Source: a virus. Taken from it: 25,543 bases of DNA. The translations under genes and the position numbers were made by a program. The notes beneath the pieces are model-generated. The model had not been told where the DNA came from and made no database searches. It was given only the letters and a program-made list of their open reading frames with translations. The DNA is taken from positions 1 through 25,543 of IMG/VR virus record IMGVR_UViG_3300044633_000897. One strand, 5' to 3'. Each line of letters starts with the position of its first letter. The stretch's first letter is position 1. Shown in pieces: positions 2,779-24,091 of the stretch.

Positions 2779-3965
2779 TGGCAACAGGATTTAAAATATC
2801 GCAAATTGGAAACTATGTAGTGGATATTGATGATATATTACTACGCCGAAACTCTTTACGGGATGCACAAATACTTAGTTGGGGGGATAATAATTGGTTT
2901 AGAGCAGGACAAACCAGTGAAGCCAACGGGTATGTTAGCCCAACGCCTATTGTTGTAGAAGCAAATGGTTGGACGCAAGTAACTGCTTCTAGGCACAGGC
3001 ACTCCGCAGGAATTAAAACGGATGGAACATTATGGACTTGGGGATCCAATGTCTACGGACAATACGGAAATACAAGCGAATATACTTCTGGATTTAGCCC
3101 AGTAACCACTGTTGCCGGTGGAACTAACTGGAAACAAGTTTCATGCGGCTATGCTTACTCAGCAGCAATAAAAACAGATGGAACATTATGGACTTGGGGG
3201 CAGAATAGTTATCAGGGTATTGGTTATGGCCAACTTGGCGATGGTACAACTATTGCTAGATTAAGCCCAGTAACCACAGCTGGAGGCGGAACTAATTGGA
3301 GCCAAGTTTCTTGCGGAGCGTTTTACACAGTAGGAATAAAAACAGACGGAACATTATGGACTTGGGGGCGCAATGACTCTTGTCAATTAGGCGACGGCAC
3401 AACTATACATAAATCTAGCCCAGTAACCACTGTTGCCGGTGGAACTAACTGGAGCCAAGTTTCAGCGCAGTATCATACAACAGGAATCAAAACAGACGGA
3501 ACATTATGGACTTGGGGAGCTAACTATGATGGGCGACTTGGCGACGGAACAACCGTATCTAAATCTAGTCCAGTAAATGTTGCTGGAGGAGGAACTAATT
3601 GGAGCCAAGTTTCAGTCGGATTTTACCATACAGCAGCAATCAAAACAGACGGAACATTATGGACTTGGGGAGGTAATAGTTATCGCCAACTTGGTGATGG
3701 CACAACTGTACAAAAATCCAGCCCAGCAACTGTTTCTGGAGGGGGAACTAATTGGAAACAAATTTCTTGTGGAGCTCTGCATACAACAGCATTAAAAACA
3801 GATGGAACATTATGGGCTTGGGGGAGAAATGGTTACGGACTGCTTGGAACTGGCGTTTCTTCTCTTTATACAAGCAGTCCAGCAACTGTTATTAGCGGCA
3901 ACCTTGAATGGAAACAAATTTCTTGTGGATATGATTATACGCTAGGATTATCATATGGCGGGTAA
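2778..3965 (+). CDS. RCC1-repeat seven-bladed propeller adhesin
   Basis: A 395-residue paralogue of the other two propeller proteins. The N-terminus (about residues 1-30, with SQIGNYVVDIDDILL) is unlike that of the 1089-2282 protein, suggesting a different attachment or partner. Then come QILSWGDNNW as the first partial blade, six clear TDGTLWxWG blades, and a closing strand LEWKQISCGYDYTLGLSYGG. This again gives seven blades. Loops between the WG strand and SPVTT vary in length and sequence between blades (for example QNSYQGIGYGQ against RNDSCQ), whereas the core strands are almost identical. This is what one expects if the loop face contacts a variable target. Placement in the tail is inferred from neighbours. 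The gene is followed by 50 bases of very AT-rich sequence with no recognised promoter. Confidence 0.85.
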   Translation: MATGFKISQIGNYVVDIDDILLRRNSLRDAQILSWGDNNWFRAGQTSEANGYVSPTPIVVEANGWTQVTASRHRHSAGIKTDGTLWTWGSNVYGQYGNTSEYTSGFSPVTTVAGGTNWKQVSCGYAYSAAIKTDGTLWTWGQNSYQGIGYGQLGDGTTIARLSPVTTAGGGTNWSQVSCGAFYTVGIKTDGTLWTWGRNDSCQLGDGTTIHKSSPVTTVAGGTNWSQVSAQYHTTGIKTDGTLWTWGANYDGRLGDGTTVSKSSPVNVAGGGTNWSQVSVGFYHTAAIKTDGTLWTWGGNSYRQLGDGTTVQKSSPATVSGGGTNWKQISCGALHTTALKTDGTLWAWGRNGYGLLGTGVSSLYTSSPATVISGNLEWKQISCGYDYTLGLSYGG

Positions 3966-4015
3966 ATTATTTTAATATATATTTTAGTAATTTTTAATTT
4001 TACTGTGAGTATATT

Positions 4016-4792
4016 ATGCCTAAAAAATATCATTTTATTTCAGGTTTACCTAGATCTGGTTCAACTCTGCTTACTGCAATCTTGAACCAGAATCCAAATT
4101 TCTATTCAAATATTTCAAATCCCCTAGCAAGGTTTGTTCGATCAATTATTGTTCATTCTTATGCAGGTCCAGGATACGCTCTTCAATGTCCAGAAGAAAA
4201 ACGCATTGAATTAATCAAAAACATAATCCAAACATATCACTCGCATATTTCGCAAGAAGTATGTTTTAATACAAATCGTGGATGGACTAATCTTCTTGCG
4301 CAACTTGAACAAGTATCTCCCGATTCAAAAGTAATATGCTGCGTAAGAGATATAAATTGGATCCTAGATTCCTTTGAGCGGTTGTTTAAAGCCAATCCCT
4401 TTACGTTATCAAGGATGTATTCTGAACAGGAAGCAGAGACCATTTACACGCGTGCATATGCCTCTATGAGTCCAGGGCATACAGTTAGATTTGCCTATGA
4501 TTCATTAAAAGAAGCCATGTGCAGCCAACAAAAACGTAATATTATGTTAGTTGATTATGAGCAATTAGCAAAATACCCAGAAAAAACTATGCGAGCTGTT
4601 TATGCTTTTATAGATGAGCCTTATTTTGAACACGATTTTTCTAATGTAGAAACATCATATGACGAATATGATTTAGAAGCAGGAATAATTGGTTTACATG
4701 ATATTAGAAAAGAAGTAAAATATATTGAAAGAGAATTTATTTTACCGCCTGATTTATTGCAGGAATTTAAAGGGTTAGAAGTCTGGAAATGA
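4016..4792 (+). CDS. sulfotransferase family protein
   Basis: A 258-residue predicted PAPS-dependent sulfotransferase. The 5'-phosphosulfate-binding loop is seen at about residues 9-19 as SGLPRSGSTLL. The 3'-phosphate-binding element is VICCVRDINWILDSFERLF near residues 106-124, with Arg111 and Ser119 at the expected spacing of eight. NRGWTNLL near residue 87 resembles other bacterial and phage members. The family transfers sulfate from PAPS to a hydroxyl or amino group of a carbohydrate, lipid or protein. The acceptor here is unknown. The first gene of a tight five-gene run, it overlaps the next by 4 bases (ATGA). An APS-kinase-like gene closes the same run, which fits supply of PAPS. Coming directly after the adhesins, the protein may sulfate a fibre-borne or host glycan; that is inference. 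Confidence 0.85.
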   Translation: MPKKYHFISGLPRSGSTLLTAILNQNPNFYSNISNPLARFVRSIIVHSYAGPGYALQCPEEKRIELIKNIIQTYHSHISQEVCFNTNRGWTNLLAQLEQVSPDSKVICCVRDINWILDSFERLFKANPFTLSRMYSEQEAETIYTRAYASMSPGHTVRFAYDSLKEAMCSQQKRNIMLVDYEQLAKYPEKTMRAVYAFIDEPYFEHDFSNVETSYDEYDLEAGIIGLHDIRKEVKYIEREFILPPDLLQEFKGLEVWK

Positions 4793-5124
4793 AATATAAA
4801 ACGTTTTATTTAAAAGCTGTAGCAATTGAGCGAGATATACCAGAATCAGATGTTCCATGCCAAACAAAATCTTGTACGGAATGTTGCGAACGCCTTTCTC
4901 CATTTTTAACAGATGAAGAATTTTCCTCTGGAAATTACATATATACTTTTTTAAATGTAGGTGATAACGAAAAACCTGCTATAGCAATACCAAGAACTGA
5001 TCGAGGTTGTATTTACCTCGATCATGATAAAAAATGCACTATTTACGATATTAGACCAAAAGCTTGCCGTCAGTTTGATTGTAGATTAGGGCATAGTCCA
5101 ATAATAACAAATAAATTTGAGTAA
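4789..5124 (+). CDS. YkgJ-like cysteine-cluster protein
   Basis: A 111-residue protein with eight cysteines, at residues 24, 29, 32, 33, 74, 83, 93 and 98. The arrangement C-x4-C-x2-CC, then GCIYLDHDKKC, then RPKACRQFDC matches the YkgJ family of putative zinc- or iron-sulfur-binding proteins, which includes proteins linked to oxidoreduction and to flagellin N-methylation. Biochemical function of the family is poorly defined. All eight family cysteines appear present, so the metal site should be intact. Translation is coupled to the sulfotransferase gene by a 4-base overlap, and the methyltransferase gene begins 3 bases after its stop. A role in modifying a virion or host surface protein together with these neighbours is inference. 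Confidence 0.8.
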   Translation: MKYKTFYLKAVAIERDIPESDVPCQTKSCTECCERLSPFLTDEEFSSGNYIYTFLNVGDNEKPAIAIPRTDRGCIYLDHDKKCTIYDIRPKACRQFDCRLGHSPIITNKFE

Positions 5125-18954: not shown

Positions 18955-20289
18955 ATGGCTTTATTAAACGAAGAATTGCAAAATAAATGGAGTCCAGTTC
19001 TGGATCATCCAGAATTAGCAAAAATTACTGACCCATACAAAAAAGCAGTTACTGCAATTGTATTGGAAAATCAACAAGCAGCGATGGATTCAGATCGCGA
19101 AACATTGATGGAAGGAACACCAACTAATACAACTGGCGGTATTTCTAACTTCGATCCAATTTTAATCAGTTTAGTACGTCGTGCTTTACCTAACTTGATT
19201 GCTTATGACGTAGCTGGCGTTCAACCAATGACTGGTCCTACTGGATTAATCTTTGCTCTACGTTCACGTTATGGCGCTCAAGGTAACGGTACATTCCCTA
19301 ACGGTGGCGGTACTGAAGCATTCTATAACGAAGCTAATACTATCTTCTCTGGTATTATCGGCACAGGTGGTTCAACTACTACAGGTCAAGCAAACTCAGC
19401 TGTAGGTTCTACAGGTCCATTAGCTAATTCAGCGTTTGATTCTGGTCAAGCAATGACAACTGCTATGGGCGAAGTATTAGGCGATGGTGCTGGTACTGTA
19501 TTCGGCGAAATGTCAATTTCAATCGAAAAAGTTACTGTTTCTGCTAGAACTCGTGCATTGAAAGCTGAATACAGCTTAGAAATGGCTCAAGATTTGAAAG
19601 CAATCCATGGTTTGGATGCTGAAACTGAATTATCAAACGTTTTATCTACAGAAATTCTTGCTGAGATGAACCGCGAAGTAATTCGTACAATCTATACAGT
19701 AGCTAAAGCTGGCGCTCAATTCGGTACAGTTACTCCAGGCGTATTCGACTTAGATACAGACTCAAATGGTCGTTGGTCAGTTGAAAGATTCAAAGGTTTG
19801 ATTTATCATATCGAAAGAGAAGCTAATCAAATCGCTAAAACAACTCGTAGAGGAAAAGGTAACATCTTAATCGTTTCTTCTGACGTTGCTTCTGCTCTAG
19901 CTATGGCTGGTGTATTACAATATACTCCTGCGTTATCTGCTGATTTACAAGTTGATGACACTGGTAATACATATGCTGGTTTGTTACATGGTCGTATCAA
20001 AGTTTATATCGATCCTTACTTCGGCGGTTCATACCAAAACGTTGAATTATGTACTGTTGGTTATAAAGGTACAAGCCCTTATGACTCTGGTTTATTCTAC
20101 TGCCCATACGTTCCTTTACAAATGGTTCGTGCAGTTGATCCAGGTACTTTCCAACCAAAAATCGGCTTCAAAACTCGTTACGGTTTAGTAGCAAATCCAT
20201 TCGCTGAAGGTACAACCCAAGGTCAAGGTTTGATTACTCCACGTAGCAACAACTATTACAGAATCTTTGCTGTGAAAAACTTGATGTAA
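18955..20289 (+). CDS. gp23: major capsid protein gp23
   Basis: A 444-residue HK97-fold capsid protein. Recognised segments include an N-terminal delta region with LENQQAAMD, SNFDPILISLVRRALPNLIAYDVAGVQPM (in part, about 62-90), TGLIFALRSRY, the ISIEKVTVSARTRALKAEYS strand and EMAQDLKAIHGLDAETEL. C-terminal segments include YCPYVPLQMVRAVDP and FKTRYGLVANPF. LME at 51-53 followed by Gly54 fits the (I/L)xE|(A/G/S) rule for gp21 cleavage and would remove a 53-residue propeptide. AAGGAG lies upstream of the ATG. I saw no TATAAATA in the short gap before the gene. It is shorter than T4 gp23 (521 residues) and near cyanophage lengths. Confidence 0.96.
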   Translation: MALLNEELQNKWSPVLDHPELAKITDPYKKAVTAIVLENQQAAMDSDRETLMEGTPTNTTGGISNFDPILISLVRRALPNLIAYDVAGVQPMTGPTGLIFALRSRYGAQGNGTFPNGGGTEAFYNEANTIFSGIIGTGGSTTTGQANSAVGSTGPLANSAFDSGQAMTTAMGEVLGDGAGTVFGEMSISIEKVTVSARTRALKAEYSLEMAQDLKAIHGLDAETELSNVLSTEILAEMNREVIRTIYTVAKAGAQFGTVTPGVFDLDTDSNGRWSVERFKGLIYHIEREANQIAKTTRRGKGNILIVSSDVASALAMAGVLQYTPALSADLQVDDTGNTYAGLLHGRIKVYIDPYFGGSYQNVELCTVGYKGTSPYDSGLFYCPYVPLQMVRAVDPGTFQPKIGFKTRYGLVANPFAEGTTQGQGLITPRSNNYYRIFAVKNLM

Positions 20290-20353: not shown

Positions 20354-21163
20354 TTAGAAAAAACTATCTAAACCAAAAGACGTGGATTTTTGATATTTAC
20401 CTCCACTGGTATCTCGTAAACGTAATTCAGCATGACCTGTAGTTTCACGAACATATTTTGTACATAAATCGGGAAATCTACGAACTAAATCGTCAGCACT
20501 TTTATCAATACGCTCAAGAGTTCGTTCAACTTGCATTCCTCCATCTTCAGTATAATATTTGGATATAACAGTAATATTGTCTAATCGCGAAACTGAACCA
20601 TCAAGAACATAATGTTGAAGAGTTCGCTCAAAATCTTCTTTATCGCATAGTTGAACCATACGATCTTGATGTTTATCGTTAATACAGCCCCACAGCGAAC
20701 CAATGCAGTAATATAAACCAGTCTTAGGGGTATAACTCATAAAAAAAGCATTCGACGCTGCATAGACACCACAGAGCATATTTTCGTTCTCCTGCATGAT
20801 ATTATACATTGGTTCAAATACTTCTACATTAATATCCTCAATTGGCTCCATTTTCTTTTCATCAGCAGGAGCTTTTCTCATAATACTTGATAAATCATCA
20901 TCAAAGTTTACAACAAATTCCTCCTCATCATAATAATTTCTAATAAAGTTTCTAATTGGTCCCATACCAACAACACCTACAACAATATTTTTGTTATAAA
21001 TGTTATCTTTTAATGATGTTTCGTAAGCAGTCTTTTCGACATCATTAGCAACAAAGATTGTTACTGTATTTGGATCTACATTATATTTTTCCAATACACT
21101 TAAAGTTTTATCTCTAAGCGTATCAGATCGTTTATACGAAGGAATTGCAATATTCAATTTCAT
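20354..21163 (-). CDS. GT-A glycosyltransferase, TET-associated (TAGT)-like
   Basis: A 269-residue glycosyltransferase. It starts with KLNIAIPSYKRSDTLRDKTL, then has TVTIFVAND (34-41), GMGPIRNFI (67-74) and a DxD-type metal/nucleotide-sugar site VVNFDDDLS (84-92). These match GT-A enzymes, and the pattern resembles phage glycosyltransferases found with TET/JBP dioxygenases (TAGT family), which are thought to glycosylate hydroxymethylated bases. The later KEDFERTLQHY segment is a candidate catalytic region. The C-terminus FGLDSFF resembles sliding-clamp-binding tails of T4 proteins. It is transcribed opposite to the late genes from its own early-type promoter, with AAAGGG upstream of the ATG. 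The dioxygenase gene lies 851 bases away on the same strand. A glycan or protein acceptor is the alternative. Confidence 0.75.
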   Translation of the reverse strand: MKLNIAIPSYKRSDTLRDKTLSVLEKYNVDPNTVTIFVANDVEKTAYETSLKDNIYNKNIVVGVVGMGPIRNFIRNYYDEEEFVVNFDDDLSSIMRKAPADEKKMEPIEDINVEVFEPMYNIMQENENMLCGVYAASNAFFMSYTPKTGLYYCIGSLWGCINDKHQDRMVQLCDKEDFERTLQHYVLDGSVSRLDNITVISKYYTEDGGMQVERTLERIDKSADDLVRRFPDLCTKYVRETTGHAELRLRDTSGGKYQKSTSFGLDSFF

Positions 21164-21193
21164 AATCTACCCTTTAATTTTAACTAAAAATAA

Positions 21194-21201
21194 TATAAAT
21201 A
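21194..21201 (+). promoter_or_regulatory. possible late promoter box for the endonuclease gene
   Basis: Exact TATAAATA on the rightward strand, 107 bases before the GIY-YIG gene. This is farther from its gene than the other boxes and it lies in very AT-rich sequence that also holds the leftward early promoter, so a chance match is possible. Confidence 0.35.
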
Positions 21202-21202
21202 T

Positions 21203-21231
21203 ATTATACTATATTATTTTGATATTGTAAA
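21203..21231 (-). promoter_or_regulatory. T4 early-type (sigma70) promoter for the glycosyltransferase gene
   Basis: Read leftward: TTTACA (-35, at 21226-21231), a 17-base spacer and TATAAT (-10, at 21203-21208), ending 39 bases before the ATG at 21163. Preceded by GC as in GCTTTACA, it is close to the T4 early -35 form GTTTAC. Confidence 0.75.
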
Positions 21232-21233
21232 GC

Positions 21234-21272
21234 AAAAAAAATGCTTATCACGATCCTGGCAGATCTATAAGC
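21234..21272 (-). terminator. leftward intrinsic terminator upstream of the glycosyltransferase promoter
   Basis: GCTTAT (21243-21248) pairs with ATAAGC (21267-21272), and inside it GATC pairs with GATC around a 6-base loop. Read leftward, the hairpin is followed within one base by eight U (A-run at 21234-21241). It would stop leftward transcripts coming from the dioxygenase gene just before the glycosyltransferase promoter. Rightward it would be a structured 5' leader of the endonuclease gene. Confidence 0.5.
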
Positions 21273-21308
21273 TCTAAACATTCGTTTTAACATTCATAGA
21301 GAATATCA

Positions 21309-22031
21309 ATGCCCAGCAAAAATATTTATACAAATAAAAATAAATTTACCTTAAACTATTATGTTTATGCATACATAAGAACATTCGATTCAATAACAGC
21401 AAAAAGCGGCACGCCATATTATATAGGAAAAGGTATAAAAAATAGAGCATTTAAAAAACACGGAAAAGTTCCTGTTCCTAAAGACAAAAATTATATAGTT
21501 TTTGTTGAAACTAATTTAACAGAAATCGGTGCATTAGCTATAGAACGAAAATTAATTAAATGGTATGGAAGAAAAGATTTAGGAACAGGAATTCTATTAA
21601 ATAGAACTGATGGCGGAGACGGGATATCAAATCCATCAATATATACTCGTAAAAAAATATCTATAGGGCAAAAAAATAGAATAATATCTGACAGTGAAAA
21701 ACAAAATACAGCAAAAAGAATGATTGGAAATACATATGGAACAGGGAAAAATTTAAAAAATACCAATGCATCAGGAAAACGATCTGAAGAAGCTGTAAAT
21801 AAATCAGCTTTAGCTCATAGAAAAATCTATAACATAATTTCTCCTAATGGGGATTCGTATTTTATTTTAGGGTTAAAAGAAATATGTAAAAAATTAAATT
21901 TAAATTATAGCGGTATGCTAAACGTTTCTCGAGAAATTAAATTACATCAAAATGGATGGAAATGTATTAAGGTTGGAAAGATACATGATTTTCCCAACCT
22001 TAACCTACATTCGTTAGAAGAAGTCTTCTAA
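21309..22031 (+). CDS. GIY-YIG endonuclease, likely homing/mobile
   Basis: A 240-residue phage GIY-YIG nuclease. The fold motifs are YYVYAYIR (17-24, GIY strand), PYYIGKG (36-42, YIG), Arg46, Glu79 in [12 protein letters not shown], and LNRTDGGDG (97-105). These are followed by a NUMOD3-like KKISIGQKN segment and a basic middle region. The C-terminal part, [27 protein letters not shown] (in part), is a helix-turn-helix of the kind that binds homing sites. Such free-standing genes cut a related phage genome lacking them and spread by repair. It is the only rightward gene between two leftward early genes, and its last 18 bases overlap the convergent dioxygenase gene. The C-terminus is SLEEVF. 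The ribosome-binding site is weak. Confidence 0.85.
21967..22003. terminator. 10-bp hairpin near convergent gene ends
   Basis: TTAAGGTTGG (21967-21976) and CCAACCTTAA (21994-22003) are exact complements with a 17-base loop. It lies inside the 3' end of the endonuclease gene and 10 bases beyond the stop of the leftward dioxygenase gene. There is no T-run in either direction, so it may be a weak terminator or an mRNA 3' structure. Confidence 0.4.
22014..22031. repeat. inverted repeat formed by two overlapping stop ends
   Basis: TTAGAAGA and TCTTCTAA flank a two-base centre. The endonuclease gene reads SLEEVF-stop through it and the dioxygenase gene reads GLEDFF-stop on the other strand, so both C-termini are encoded by the same 18 bases. 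Confidence 0.9.
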
Positions 22032-23432
22032 CCCATTTGATTCATTTGCAGTTTTTAACCAAGGGTGATGTTGTTGTAACCATTTTTCCCCAATAGATCC
22101 TTTTGATTTTAAAAAATTATACCATTCTTTTGATGTAGAATAATTATAATTTTTATCTGGAGTATCAGCCCACATTCCAGGGCTGATACCATTCCAACGA
22201 TATCTTTGATCTGGGTGCAATAAATTTAACCTACGACTATCAATAAATTCTCTTCGTGCATCTTCATAATCATATGAACCGAGTTCTAGCATTCTTTCAT
22301 GAAAGAATGCTATAATAGAAATTCTTTCTGCGTCTGGATCATGTTTTATCATTTCAGTATTACCATGTAAACCGGCTTGGTTATTTACTAATAATAAATC
22401 AGTAGGTCTAATATCAACCGCATATCCAATTTCAGGGAACACCAAGTAGCATCCTGTGTAATTATCATTATCGCTAATTACACAAAGATTAGCAAAACCA
22501 TCCGGCATATTAGCAGGATCGTAATGACCCGCTGTTCTAAAGTCTCTATTTACAGTAATTGTTGTAAACGGAGTTTCCGGTACAACAAATCTTTGATCAA
22601 TCGATTCAGCAGCACGTTTTTGATTACCATAACGCCATGGCAACATATCTTTAAAACCTTTAGCTAAAGATTGCAAGAATGGATACGATTTAGCAAACTT
22701 TTCTGGATTATCTCTTGTATATGTAGTCGGTCTACCAAAAGGAATCCTAGGATATCTATCATACCACCCAGCAATACCAGAATTTACGACATTAGCATAA
22801 GTCGTTTTACTAATCAATTTATCCAATACTCGCTGAGCTTCAACTTTTGCTTCATCAATAGTTAATATACACAATTTATCGATAAAGTCATTAAATACAA
22901 ATTGTTCAGCTCTAATCTGTTCAGTTAACCAAACAACGCCACGACTATCATCAGATTTAAGAGTTTTATATTTTGCTCTAATTAAATCAACATCCGCCTT
23001 TGGAGTATAACCACCGAATACTGAAGTTGAATTTTTATAAGCAAAGAATTCTAGTAAATCAAATTGTTCGTCAGTAACCCATTCTCTTCCCGCGCATGTA
23101 GCAGTTCTTGGACCACCAGCCATTCCTCGATTTTGAGTTTCAACAGCTGCATCGCGTAACCCTGCATAAGCTGCATCAGCTTCTTCTTTATTAAAGAAAT
23201 TTTTACGGAACTTAAACACAATATTCTTTTCAGATAACCCTTTGTGACAAGAATTGCATTCCATATTGTTGTTACAGTTTTCTTCGGCAGTAAAATCTGC
23301 GCAATCTGGAGGAAGATATACATCTAAATCTTCCTCAACTAATATTCTATAATGACTTTCATCAAGCCATTTACCAACCAAATCGGGTCTTGGAGTTACC
23401 TCTTCCGGTTTTAAAACTACAACTTTTACCAT
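22014..23432 (-). CDS. TET/JBP-family 2-oxoglutarate/Fe(II) DNA base dioxygenase
   Basis: A 472-residue protein with the TET/JBP oxygenase pattern. NRGMAGG (101-107) is a family hallmark in the N-terminal part. Then come [17 protein letters not shown] (230-246), [11 protein letters not shown] (288-298), the iron ligands His303-Tyr-Asp305 in AGHYDPAN, and [10 protein letters not shown] (327-336). The third ligand is His356 in NQAGLHGN, and a 2-oxoglutarate-binding Arg370 is in ERISIIAFF. Family members oxidise the methyl group of 5-methylcytosine or thymine in DNA. Near the N-terminus C-x5-C-x2-C (53, 59, 62) with Cys44 may bind zinc. The last residues, NGLEDFF, resemble a clamp-binding tail. 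The start has AGGAG upstream and its own early-type promoter. Substrate base is unknown; no pyrimidine-methylating partner is seen here. Confidence 0.85.
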
Positions 23433-23461: not shown

Positions 23462-23490
23462 ATTTTACTACATAAATTAAAAAAAGTAAA
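23462..23490 (-). promoter_or_regulatory. T4 early-type (sigma70) promoter for the dioxygenase gene
   Basis: Read leftward: TTTACT (-35, at 23485-23490), a 17-base spacer and TAAAAT (-10, at 23462-23467), 29 bases before the ATG at 23432. It shares GCTTTAC with the glycosyltransferase promoter, suggesting joint early expression. Confidence 0.72.
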
Positions 23491-23548: not shown

Positions 23549-24091
23549 ATGGCTCTTAACGATACAAACATCTGTAATACCGATTTGTTACAGTCAGCAA
23601 AATTTATTTTTACGATTCCTAGATTAATGGAAGTTCAATTCTTCTGTCAAGCAGTAAATCTTCCAGGAGTAAATTCTCAAAGCACGGTTCAAGTAAACCC
23701 GTTTAGAGATATGGGCGTCCCAGGAGATAAAATGGAATACGAAGATTTATCTATCGAGTTTCTTATTGATGAGGAATTGAGATCTTGGACTTCAATATAT
23801 TATTGGATTAAAGGATATACGCAAGCTGAAGCTTGGGACGATTATGCTAATTTAAATAAATTATCAAAATATAGTCAATATGAATATATAAATACTCCAC
23901 AATATGCTGACGCAATATTAACAACATTATCGCCAGCTTCTGATAAACCAAAGGTAAATATCCATTTTATAGATTTATTTCCAGTTTATCTGTCTGCTAT
24001 ACCGTTTGATGTTAGGGTTAGTTCTGCAAAAACAATGACAGCAACTGCAACATTTAGGTTTAAAAGGTATGAATTGACTTTAGTTGGCTAG
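23549..24091 (+). CDS. tail tube-fold protein (gp19/gp54-like; gp3 position)
   Basis: A 180-residue protein with the tail-tube beta-barrel pattern. It has SAKFIFTIPRLMEVQFFCQAVNLPGV (in part, 17-41), where tubes carry the hydrophobic strand and LPG turn, then FRDMGVPGDKMEYEDLSIEFLIDEEL (in part, 51-76) and a closing TATATFRFKRYELTLVG. It resembles gp19 and the tube initiator gp54 more than any other family I know. In cyanophage relatives the slot between gene 23 and uvsY holds gene 3 (tail completion), so this may be that gene. Fold is fairly secure, the exact identity is not. It has its own late promoter box. Confidence 0.72.
   Translation: MALNDTNICNTDLLQSAKFIFTIPRLMEVQFFCQAVNLPGVNSQSTVQVNPFRDMGVPGDKMEYEDLSIEFLIDEELRSWTSIYYWIKGYTQAEAWDDYANLNKLSKYSQYEYINTPQYADAILTTLSPASDKPKVNIHFIDLFPVYLSAIPFDVRVSSAKTMTATATFRFKRYELTLVG

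Follow-up and report, generated by a model that had tools for sequence, protein, structure and literature searches.

A phage that modifies its DNA has to reach newly made duplex ahead of the restriction enzymes, and two genes of a T4-type phage suggest one way in which this may be done. They lie in IMG/VR virus record IMGVR_UViG_3300044633_000897, a 25.5-kb fragment bearing late genes, and all 25,543 nucleotides of it are called the window here. The genes encode a dioxygenase of the TET/JBP family (TET) and a TET-associated glycosyltransferase (TAGT). The two enzymes probably act as a pair, hypermodifying DNA after replication while tethered to the replication clamp, with thymine as the likely base and a hexose as the added sugar. 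Both end in a tail like that of the DNA polymerase of close relatives, which suggests that the DNA would be disguised while it is being copied. An initial annotation of this DNA had proposed a base modification module at the site. Its observation is confirmed and its interpretation is partly supported and mostly right; it missed the polymerase-like tails and a homing-endonuclease-like insert.

The 472-amino-acid protein is a Tet_JBP dioxygenase and is set clear of other oxygenase families. It scores 83.8 bits against Tet_JBP (PF12851), for which the curated cut-off is 34.9, and it matches PHROG 24024 at 430.7 bits. Residues H303, D305, H356, and R370 are unvaried in 22 of 22 aligned TET sequences, the window's own counted, and this bears out the HxD...H...R set that had been read from the sequence. 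From the family we take these residues to be the ligands of the metal and of 2-oxoglutarate (2OG). The AlphaFold model, with a predicted local distance difference test score (pLDDT) of 78, has the TET-type double-stranded beta-helix fold. Structurally it comes closest to TET2, NgTET, CMD1, and CcTET, with Z scores of 17-19. TET2 aligns over 260 residues (Z 19.0, root-mean-square deviation 4.2), and the next family follows with ALKBH3 at Z 13.8. The question of whether the protein belongs to a non-DNA oxygenase family had been raised earlier, and the protein came out TET-like by both profile and structure. When the two enzymes were compared with PDB sequences by phmmer, all matches were weak or due to chance, with TET2 at an E value of 0.16. 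The TET genes of L051, L053, and L054 are annotated in GenBank as 'SNF2 DNA repair protein'.

The 269-amino-acid protein belongs to the TAGT family. It scores 43.2 bits against PF20691 (curated cut-off 27.5), and it matches PHROG 25200 at 139 bits and PHROG 842 (beta-glucosyl-HMC-alpha-glucosyltransferase) at 41.6 bits. The DxD-type motif D88-D90 is unvaried in 20 of 20 aligned TAGT sequences, again with the window's own counted. The prediction of a TAGT-type enzyme with an acidic site on the strand of TET was thus correct, and so was the pairing, with both open reading frames (ORFs) on one strand and both families over their cut-offs. The AlphaFold model of TAGT is poor (pLDDT 62; best match RmlT, E 1.5e-3) and weakly supports a GT-A fold. 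Structure prediction of both active sites had been proposed; the model of TET is TET-like in fold, and that of TAGT is too poor to settle its fold. The chemistry foreseen for the pair, hydroxylation and then glycosylation of a pyrimidine, is supported and likely. The pairing recurs across many phage records, and TET-TAGT pairs in phages are already known. Burke 2021 and Iyer 2013 reportedly describe phage pathways of TET, C5-methyltransferase, and glycosyltransferase, and in Burke 2021 phage TETs are said to have been shown to act on 5-methylcytosine (5mC).

Both enzymes end in the same kind of short tail, with the consensus [S/T/G]L[E/D]x[F/L]F after a flexible linker. Relatives in IMG/VR were scored with a looser form of the pattern, and the expectation was taken from the frequency of the motif inside the same proteins. 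The tail is found in 99 of 107 distinct complete TET ORFs (2.5 expected) and in 41 of 55 TAGT ORFs (1.4 expected). For clustering at 80% identity, length and identity filters cut the TET rows from 107 to 100 and the TAGT rows from 55 to 46, and the tail is present in 43 of 45 TET clusters and 14 of 24 TAGT clusters. In the 43 tailed TET clusters L or I opens the motif, E or D comes next in 39, and the final F is found in 43 of 43. The linker from the last conserved tryptophan to the motif is 21-31 amino acids long in these clusters and is poorly conserved. In the window the codons of the two tails differ, which indicates that the tail is not a copied piece of DNA. Among 70 distinct genes of at least 200 amino acids directly 3' of TET, 12 have a tail of the looser pattern, and all 12 encode glycosyltransferases by family or close likeness. 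In many relatives a DnaB-like helicase gene lies directly upstream of TET (for example L165 2561-3991), and its product often has its own FxGFKF-type tail.

The DNA polymerases of these phages have similar ends. The polymerase ends in CIDDFFA in G001, G008, and G009, in TLDSFFA in Stenotrophomonas phage DLP6, in TLEDFFG in C48C1 and Methylophilales phage Melnitz, in SLEDFF or SLEDFFG in G010, G035, G046, G053, and G063, and in DLSSLFD in Cr30. The T4 counterparts are SLDFLFG at the end of gp43 and SLDFLYEAND at the end of gp55. The close relatives G001 and G009 have, in addition to this polymerase, a gp45 match over the cut-off; the window holds neither gene.

Within whole records the tail is concentrated in polymerases and modification enzymes. 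ORFs were called by codon use and compared with a strict pattern, [LI][EDSGNQ]x[FLYM]F followed by at most two further residues. In the window it matches two of 27 ORFs, TAGT and TET. The pattern was written after the ends of TET, TAGT, and polymerase were known, so that the counts for G009 (3/139), DLP6 (3/218), C48C1 (4/180), and Cr30 (2/233) are partly post hoc; in G009 and DLP6 the matches are TET, TAGT, and polymerase only. It was already fixed when G063 (3/203), G001 (3/102), G048 (4/231), and Melnitz (2/191) were counted, and G001 and G009, as close relatives, are not independent. When these eight TET-bearing T4-type records are pooled, 24 of 1,497 ORFs match against 1.81 expected. Eight of the matches are polymerases, 13 are DNA-modification enzymes, and three are baseplate-hub proteins. 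The modification enzymes comprise six TETs, four TAGT or TAGT-like proteins (that of Cr30 scores under the Pfam cut-off), one GT-B glycosyltransferase (Glycos_transf_1) directly after TET, one D12 adenine methylase, and one Mom. A T4_baseplate protein with an LxxFF end (L250 7960-8691, with likes in C48C1, G048, HTVC008M, and S-SKS1) is the regular exception, in the eight records, to the tail's restriction to polymerases and modification enzymes. In records without TET, the strict pattern matches three of 247 ORFs in T4 (polymerase and two others), two of 177 in HTVC008M (polymerase and a hub-like protein), and one of 259 in S-SKS1 (hub-like). The S-SKS1 polymerase ORF (78328-80868) ends KRHRKGNRR, without a tail, and a D12-like methylase there ends VLDLLLYD and lacks the strict tail.

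The tail is kept in relatives of the other tailed families and is absent from several control families. Among viral contigs it is present in 45 of 54 D12 methylase relatives (C48C1 gene: L078 15480-16364) and in 51 of 56 Mom relatives (Melnitz-3 gene: L280 15571-16380). The Mom proteins of phage Mu and of an Edwardsiella phage are without it, as are T4 alpha-glucosyltransferase (alpha-GT), which ends QFDIITK, and the TAGT of T6. Among blastp relatives of other proteins encoded near TET, the strict tail is found in none of 52 amidotransferases, 31 amidoligases, or five low-molecular-weight phosphatases, and in none of 14 and 19 epimerases (overlapping sets).

The tail is also absent from these enzymes in several phages that have no polB match. 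It is lacking in TET of HTVC112P and P12024L, in the glycosyltransferase of P12024L, in TAGT of Acadian and Lilmac1015, and in both enzymes of S-CBWM1, and these five isolates have no polB and no gp45 match. In S-CBWM1 none of 172 ORFs has the strict tail. Twelve IMG/VR records with tail-less TAGT (G073, G074, G077-G083, and G085-G087; 6.7 to 109 kb) likewise gave no match to polB, gp45, or Gp23, and polB is present in nine of the ten large tailed records tested. PF02916 is insensitive, with no match in T4-type HTVC008M or in G048, and for this reason the polB profile was added.

Read most simply, these results make both enzymes probable clients of the gp45 clamp. TET would hydroxylate a pyrimidine in DNA at its 5-methyl group, most likely converting thymine to 5-hydroxymethyluracil (5hmU, or hmU), and TAGT would then add a hexose to the new hydroxyl. 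The tail peptide after the flexible linker of each enzyme would bind gp45 as the polymerase end does in T4 and RB69. The enzymes would be loaded onto clamps left on the new duplex behind the fork, and this duplex would be modified before host nucleases meet the DNA. Passages of PMC2988020 describe the C-termini of T4 gp43, gp55, and gp33 as interchangeable clamp ligands, that of gp55 following a divergent linker of varying length, and the RB69 clamp has been crystallized with the last 11 residues of RB69 polymerase. According to part of PMC13216743, T4 alpha-GT co-purifies with gp45 and beta-GT does not.

The modules that follow TET in the relatives bear on the base and on the sugar. In L012 (6383-9533) genes for GATase_6, Amidoligase_2, LMWPc, and ADDT proteins come after TET, in the place of TAGT. 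The L012 TET is 80% identical to that of the window and adjoins the same tail-tube and UvsY genes; it seems that TET stays constant while the partner module behind it is exchanged. In L165 and G063 the TET and ADDT module also includes a P-loop kinase, and in Cr30 an ADDT gene lies near TET. Kinase and transferase steps on 5-hydroxymethyldeoxyuridine (5hmdU) in DNA are described for phages M6, ViI, and phi W-14 in passages of PMC6449724. The ADDT/kinase module after TET in some relatives would be alike in these steps; in the phages of PMC6449724 5hmdU enters as a nucleotide, whereas here it would arise in DNA through TET.

An NAD-dependent epimerase gene lies between TET and TAGT in L029-type (L029 4246-5001) and L041-type relatives, and G001 and G009 carry an epimerase gene elsewhere in the record. 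In L041 the interval (3279-4989) also encodes a second TAGT-like protein, which scores below the Pfam cut-off. Since the epimerase is inside the operon of some relatives, the sugar need not be glucose. The genes after TET in C48C1 (L052 11920-15367) encode a product that no Pfam family matches and then a UDP-galactopyranose mutase (GLF 177 bits). These neighbours hint that the DNA carries a furanose. In S-CBWM1 (L054 3729-7139) TET and TAGT are followed by genes annotated as phosphoheptose isomerase and glucose-1-phosphate thymidylyltransferase.

The features of the locus are listed in the table. Profile searches with Pfam and PHROG identified late genes for sheath, portal, prohead protease, scaffold, gp23, tail tube, and UvsY in the window. 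The capsid protein shares about 62% identity with its counterparts in Synechococcus phage S-SKS1 and Melnitz and 61% with that of DLP6. As stated in the initial annotation, the pair is set in a late structural cluster beside the capsid gene. Gp23 lies to the left and tail tube and then UvsY to the right; TET and TAGT run opposite to gp23 and to the tail tube.

Features of the locus, with positions in the window
Feature	Position	Strand	Evidence
Major capsid protein gp23, left flank	18955..20289	+	Gp23 470 bits
TAGT (TET-associated glycosyltransferase), 269 aa	20354..21163	-	Pfam TAGT, PHROGs
TAGT C-terminal tail GLDSFF-stop	20354..20374	-	Same kind of tail as TET
TAGT acidic motif D88-D90	20894..20902	-	Invariant, 20/20 sequences
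Gap between TET stop and TAGT start, 850 bp	21164..22013	.	8 bases in L017, L008
Sigma-70-like promoter TTTACA-17-TATAAT upstream of TAGT, within insert	21203..21231	-	11/12 matches
Putative GIY-YIG-type homing endonuclease, 240 aa	21309..22031	+	PHROGs, presence/absence in relatives
TET/JBP-family 2OG-Fe(II) dioxygenase, 472 aa	22014..23432	-	Tet_JBP, PHROG, structural matches
TET C-terminal tail GLEDFF-stop, putative sliding-clamp peptide	22014..22034	-	Conserved after variable linker; polymerase-like
TET metal and 2OG ligands H303xD305, H356, R370	22323..22526	-	Invariant, 22/22 sequences
Sigma-70-like promoter TTTACT-17-TAAAAT upstream of TET	23462..23490	-	9/12 matches, weak
Tail tube gp19, right flank	23549..24091	+	Phage_TTP_2 28.9 bits; PHROG 45

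An uninterrupted TET-TAGT operon is present in some relatives and is split by an insert ORF in the window. From the TET stop to the TAGT start the distance is eight bases in L017 and L008 and 850 in the window. The two genes of the window thus share a strand and are not contiguous, a point absent from the initial annotation, and an opposite-strand ORF of 240 amino acids lies between them. The insert ORF is a putative homing endonuclease of GIY-YIG type, a label for which we rely on a motif that we take to be diagnostic. It matches PHROG 15526/10829 (unknown function), its C-terminal part matches an HNH endonuclease family, and Pfam and NCBIfam searches gave no match. It is present or absent at the same site among relatives, two further relatives of it occur elsewhere in G009, and at least G001 and G003 show the same arrangement. 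Compared with L017, the sequence is 98-100% identical upstream of TET and at its start and 91-100% identical over TAGT and beyond. Over the final 500 bases of TET the identity is 72-85%, suggesting that the insert arrived with a piece of flanking sequence. The insert ORF overlaps the end of TET by 18 bases, and its own end is the antisense of the TET tail (22014-22034 / 22014-22031). Since GAA is the reverse complement of TTC, what reads LEDFF-stop on one strand reads SLEEVF-stop on the opposite one; in relatives the insert ends in SLEEIF.

The initial annotation had given the pair its own early promoters, and these are consensus matches only. The region has 16 sigma-70-like sites compared with 17.9 in shuffled sequence, which is no excess. 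The match carried by the insert could offset the broken operon for TAGT. Late-promoter words (TATAAATA) occur nine times in the window against 6.1 by chance, and as 17 of 100 shuffles reach nine, no claim is made on them.

The ordinary cytosine route is a possible but less probable alternative: a phage or host methyltransferase would make 5mC, TET would convert it to 5-hydroxymethylcytosine (5hmC), and TAGT would glycosylate that, in which case the tail may still bind the clamp. A passage of PMC11404850 cites Burke 2021 for phage TETs that act on 5mC, and the top structural matches of the TET model are 5mC oxygenases. By annotation, genes for TET, a glycosyltransferase, and a methyltransferase follow one another in P12024L, and in Melnitz, a distant relative, an HhaI-type C5-methylase adjoins TET together with a related kinase, which weakens the argument for thymine from the ADDT and kinase genes. 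On the other side, the C5-methyltransferase family PF00145 is found in none of 26 records and none of 50 further records, the window included; many of the 76 are fragments, and the search took in four complete isolates and contigs of 168 and 197 kb, with Melnitz, P12024L, and the tail-less-TAGT records outside it. Such a search had been proposed for the full genome as a means of telling 5mC from thymine, and the result leans to thymine with the window itself a fragment. The dCMP hydroxymethylase family of gp42 type (PF00303) is found in one of 30 records, only in Cr30, the window again counting as a fragment. Together, the lack of PF00145 in 76 records and the ADDT module of L012 at the place of TAGT incline the choice to thymine, which is favoured here with moderate confidence. 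The restriction-enzyme panel used on DLP6 includes enzymes whose recognition sites lack A and T. The testing of DLP6 DNA with this panel (PMC5349666) is a further point against thymine. In a review table (PMC8228603) the DNA of DLP6 is labelled 'restriction resistant', a label common to several S. maltophilia phages. As proof of modification this resistance was set aside, because several phages share the label and the sentence of the original report gives no outcome. A target other than DNA, such as RNA, a host surface sugar, or a small molecule, is very improbable for the pair. In its favour, GT-A enzymes act on many acceptors, and the model of TAGT is of poor quality and found weak matches. 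This explanation was rejected on the clear assignment of TET apart from other oxygenases, the recurrent pairing with TAGT in many phage records, and the polymerase-type tails on both enzymes.

Several results weigh against delivery by the clamp, and some of them would fit a tail with another role, such as binding a shared partner (single-strand binding protein), completing the fold with a hydrophobic end, or being a chance likeness kept by descent. A baseplate-hub protein has a similar end in C48C1, G063, G048, HTVC008M, and S-SKS1 (its family was tested for the G063 copy only), so the tail alone is no proof of clamp binding. None of 18 blastp relatives of the P-loop kinase that belongs to the ADDT module, an enzyme expected to act on DNA, has the strict tail, the second TAGT-like protein of L040 and L041 is without a tail, and none was seen when gp55 of DLP6 and Cr30 was inspected. 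The ADDT proteins fail the strict pattern in 25 of 30 cases and have it in five; among the matches listed, 13 of 15 end in LExF or IDxFF plus at most two residues. A partial likeness is seen in L029-type operons, where the last residues of the epimerase are TLEEIV, and the TET tails of Cr30 (GATLF), Melnitz (NLNDFLGE), and L040 fail the pattern. The small tailed records G068, G075, and G076, all fragments, have no polB, gp45, or Gp23 either. In T4 the share of alpha-glucose is attributed mostly to expression and not to clamp binding in the authors' statement in PMC13216743. The Cr30 TET (L053 12001-13329) ends as if residues had been lost from its tail, and the TAGT-like protein of Cr30 ends DLSKLF. 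A role away from the clamp is nonetheless unlikely. Unrelated families (the dioxygenase, TAGT, Glycos_transf_1, D12 methylase, and Mom) have the tail of the polymerase, the motif is conserved and the linker is not, the last five residues of TET are modelled with pLDDT under 50, and the tail is absent in the five isolates without a polB or gp45 match. There is also little to recommend the idea that the insert wrecked the module, leaving a decaying pair with the 3' end of TET replaced and TAGT cut off from the operon promoter. The 850 bp between the genes and the divergence from L017 in the last 500 bases of TET, with TAGT at 91-99% identity, could be taken that way. Decay was rejected, since both ORFs are intact with their invariant residues and tails and the arrangement recurs in at least G001 and G003; the insert also brings the promoter match for TAGT.

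Clamp delivery of TET and TAGT has partial counterparts in known systems. T4 alpha-GT, as described in passages of PMC13216743 and PMC6024577, is also a DNA glycosyltransferase tied to a T4-type replication clamp; it differs in having a GT-B fold, in acting on 5hmC made as a nucleotide, and in being without this tail. The clamp motifs of T4 gp43, gp55, and gp33 are similar in their short hydrophobic and acidic C-terminus and divergent linker (passages of PMC2988020 and PMC7892883). As clients of the T4 clamp those passages name polymerase, ligase, clamp loader, and transcription factors, with no base modifiers of the TET, TAGT, D12, or Mom kind. In eukaryotes DNMT1 is likewise recruited to new DNA by a clamp motif, in that case for PCNA and for cytosine methylation (part of PMC9690074). 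Phage pathways of TET, C5-methyltransferase, and glycosyltransferase also pair a Tet_JBP oxygenase with a TAGT-type transferase; the module in the window differs from them in the lack of PF00145 in the 76 records and in the clamp-type tail on both enzymes. In the base J system of kinetoplastids (JBP1/2 and JGT), thymine is hydroxylated in DNA and the resulting hmU is then glycosylated, which is the same order of steps if thymine is the substrate here. We know of no clamp tail in that system. No account of a clamp tail on a phage TET or TAGT was found in the parts of the open literature searched, a scope that does not take in Burke 2021 and Iyer 2013. A shared polymerase-type clamp peptide spread over several families of modification enzymes appears to be new.

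A wider reading is favoured by a small measure, in which T4-type base hypermodification would be a replisome function. At least five families (TET, TAGT, GT-B glycosyltransferases, D12 methylases, and Mom) would have gained the clamp peptide of the polymerase, with the case weaker for ADDT, and a toolbelt on the clamp would follow the fork and mark new DNA in a set order, ahead of the host nucleases. The product here would be a sugar-hydroxymethyluracil, a viral counterpart of base J. Because the six-residue tail is shared and removable, clamp delivery is directly testable on several enzymes. The tail may also serve as a simple sequence mark for DNA-modifying enzymes of T4-type phages, and in this analysis it led to a Mom, a D12 methylase, and a glycosyltransferase from outside the TAGT family. 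Should thymine be the base, two enzymes would make a nucleotide like base J in a bacterial virus.

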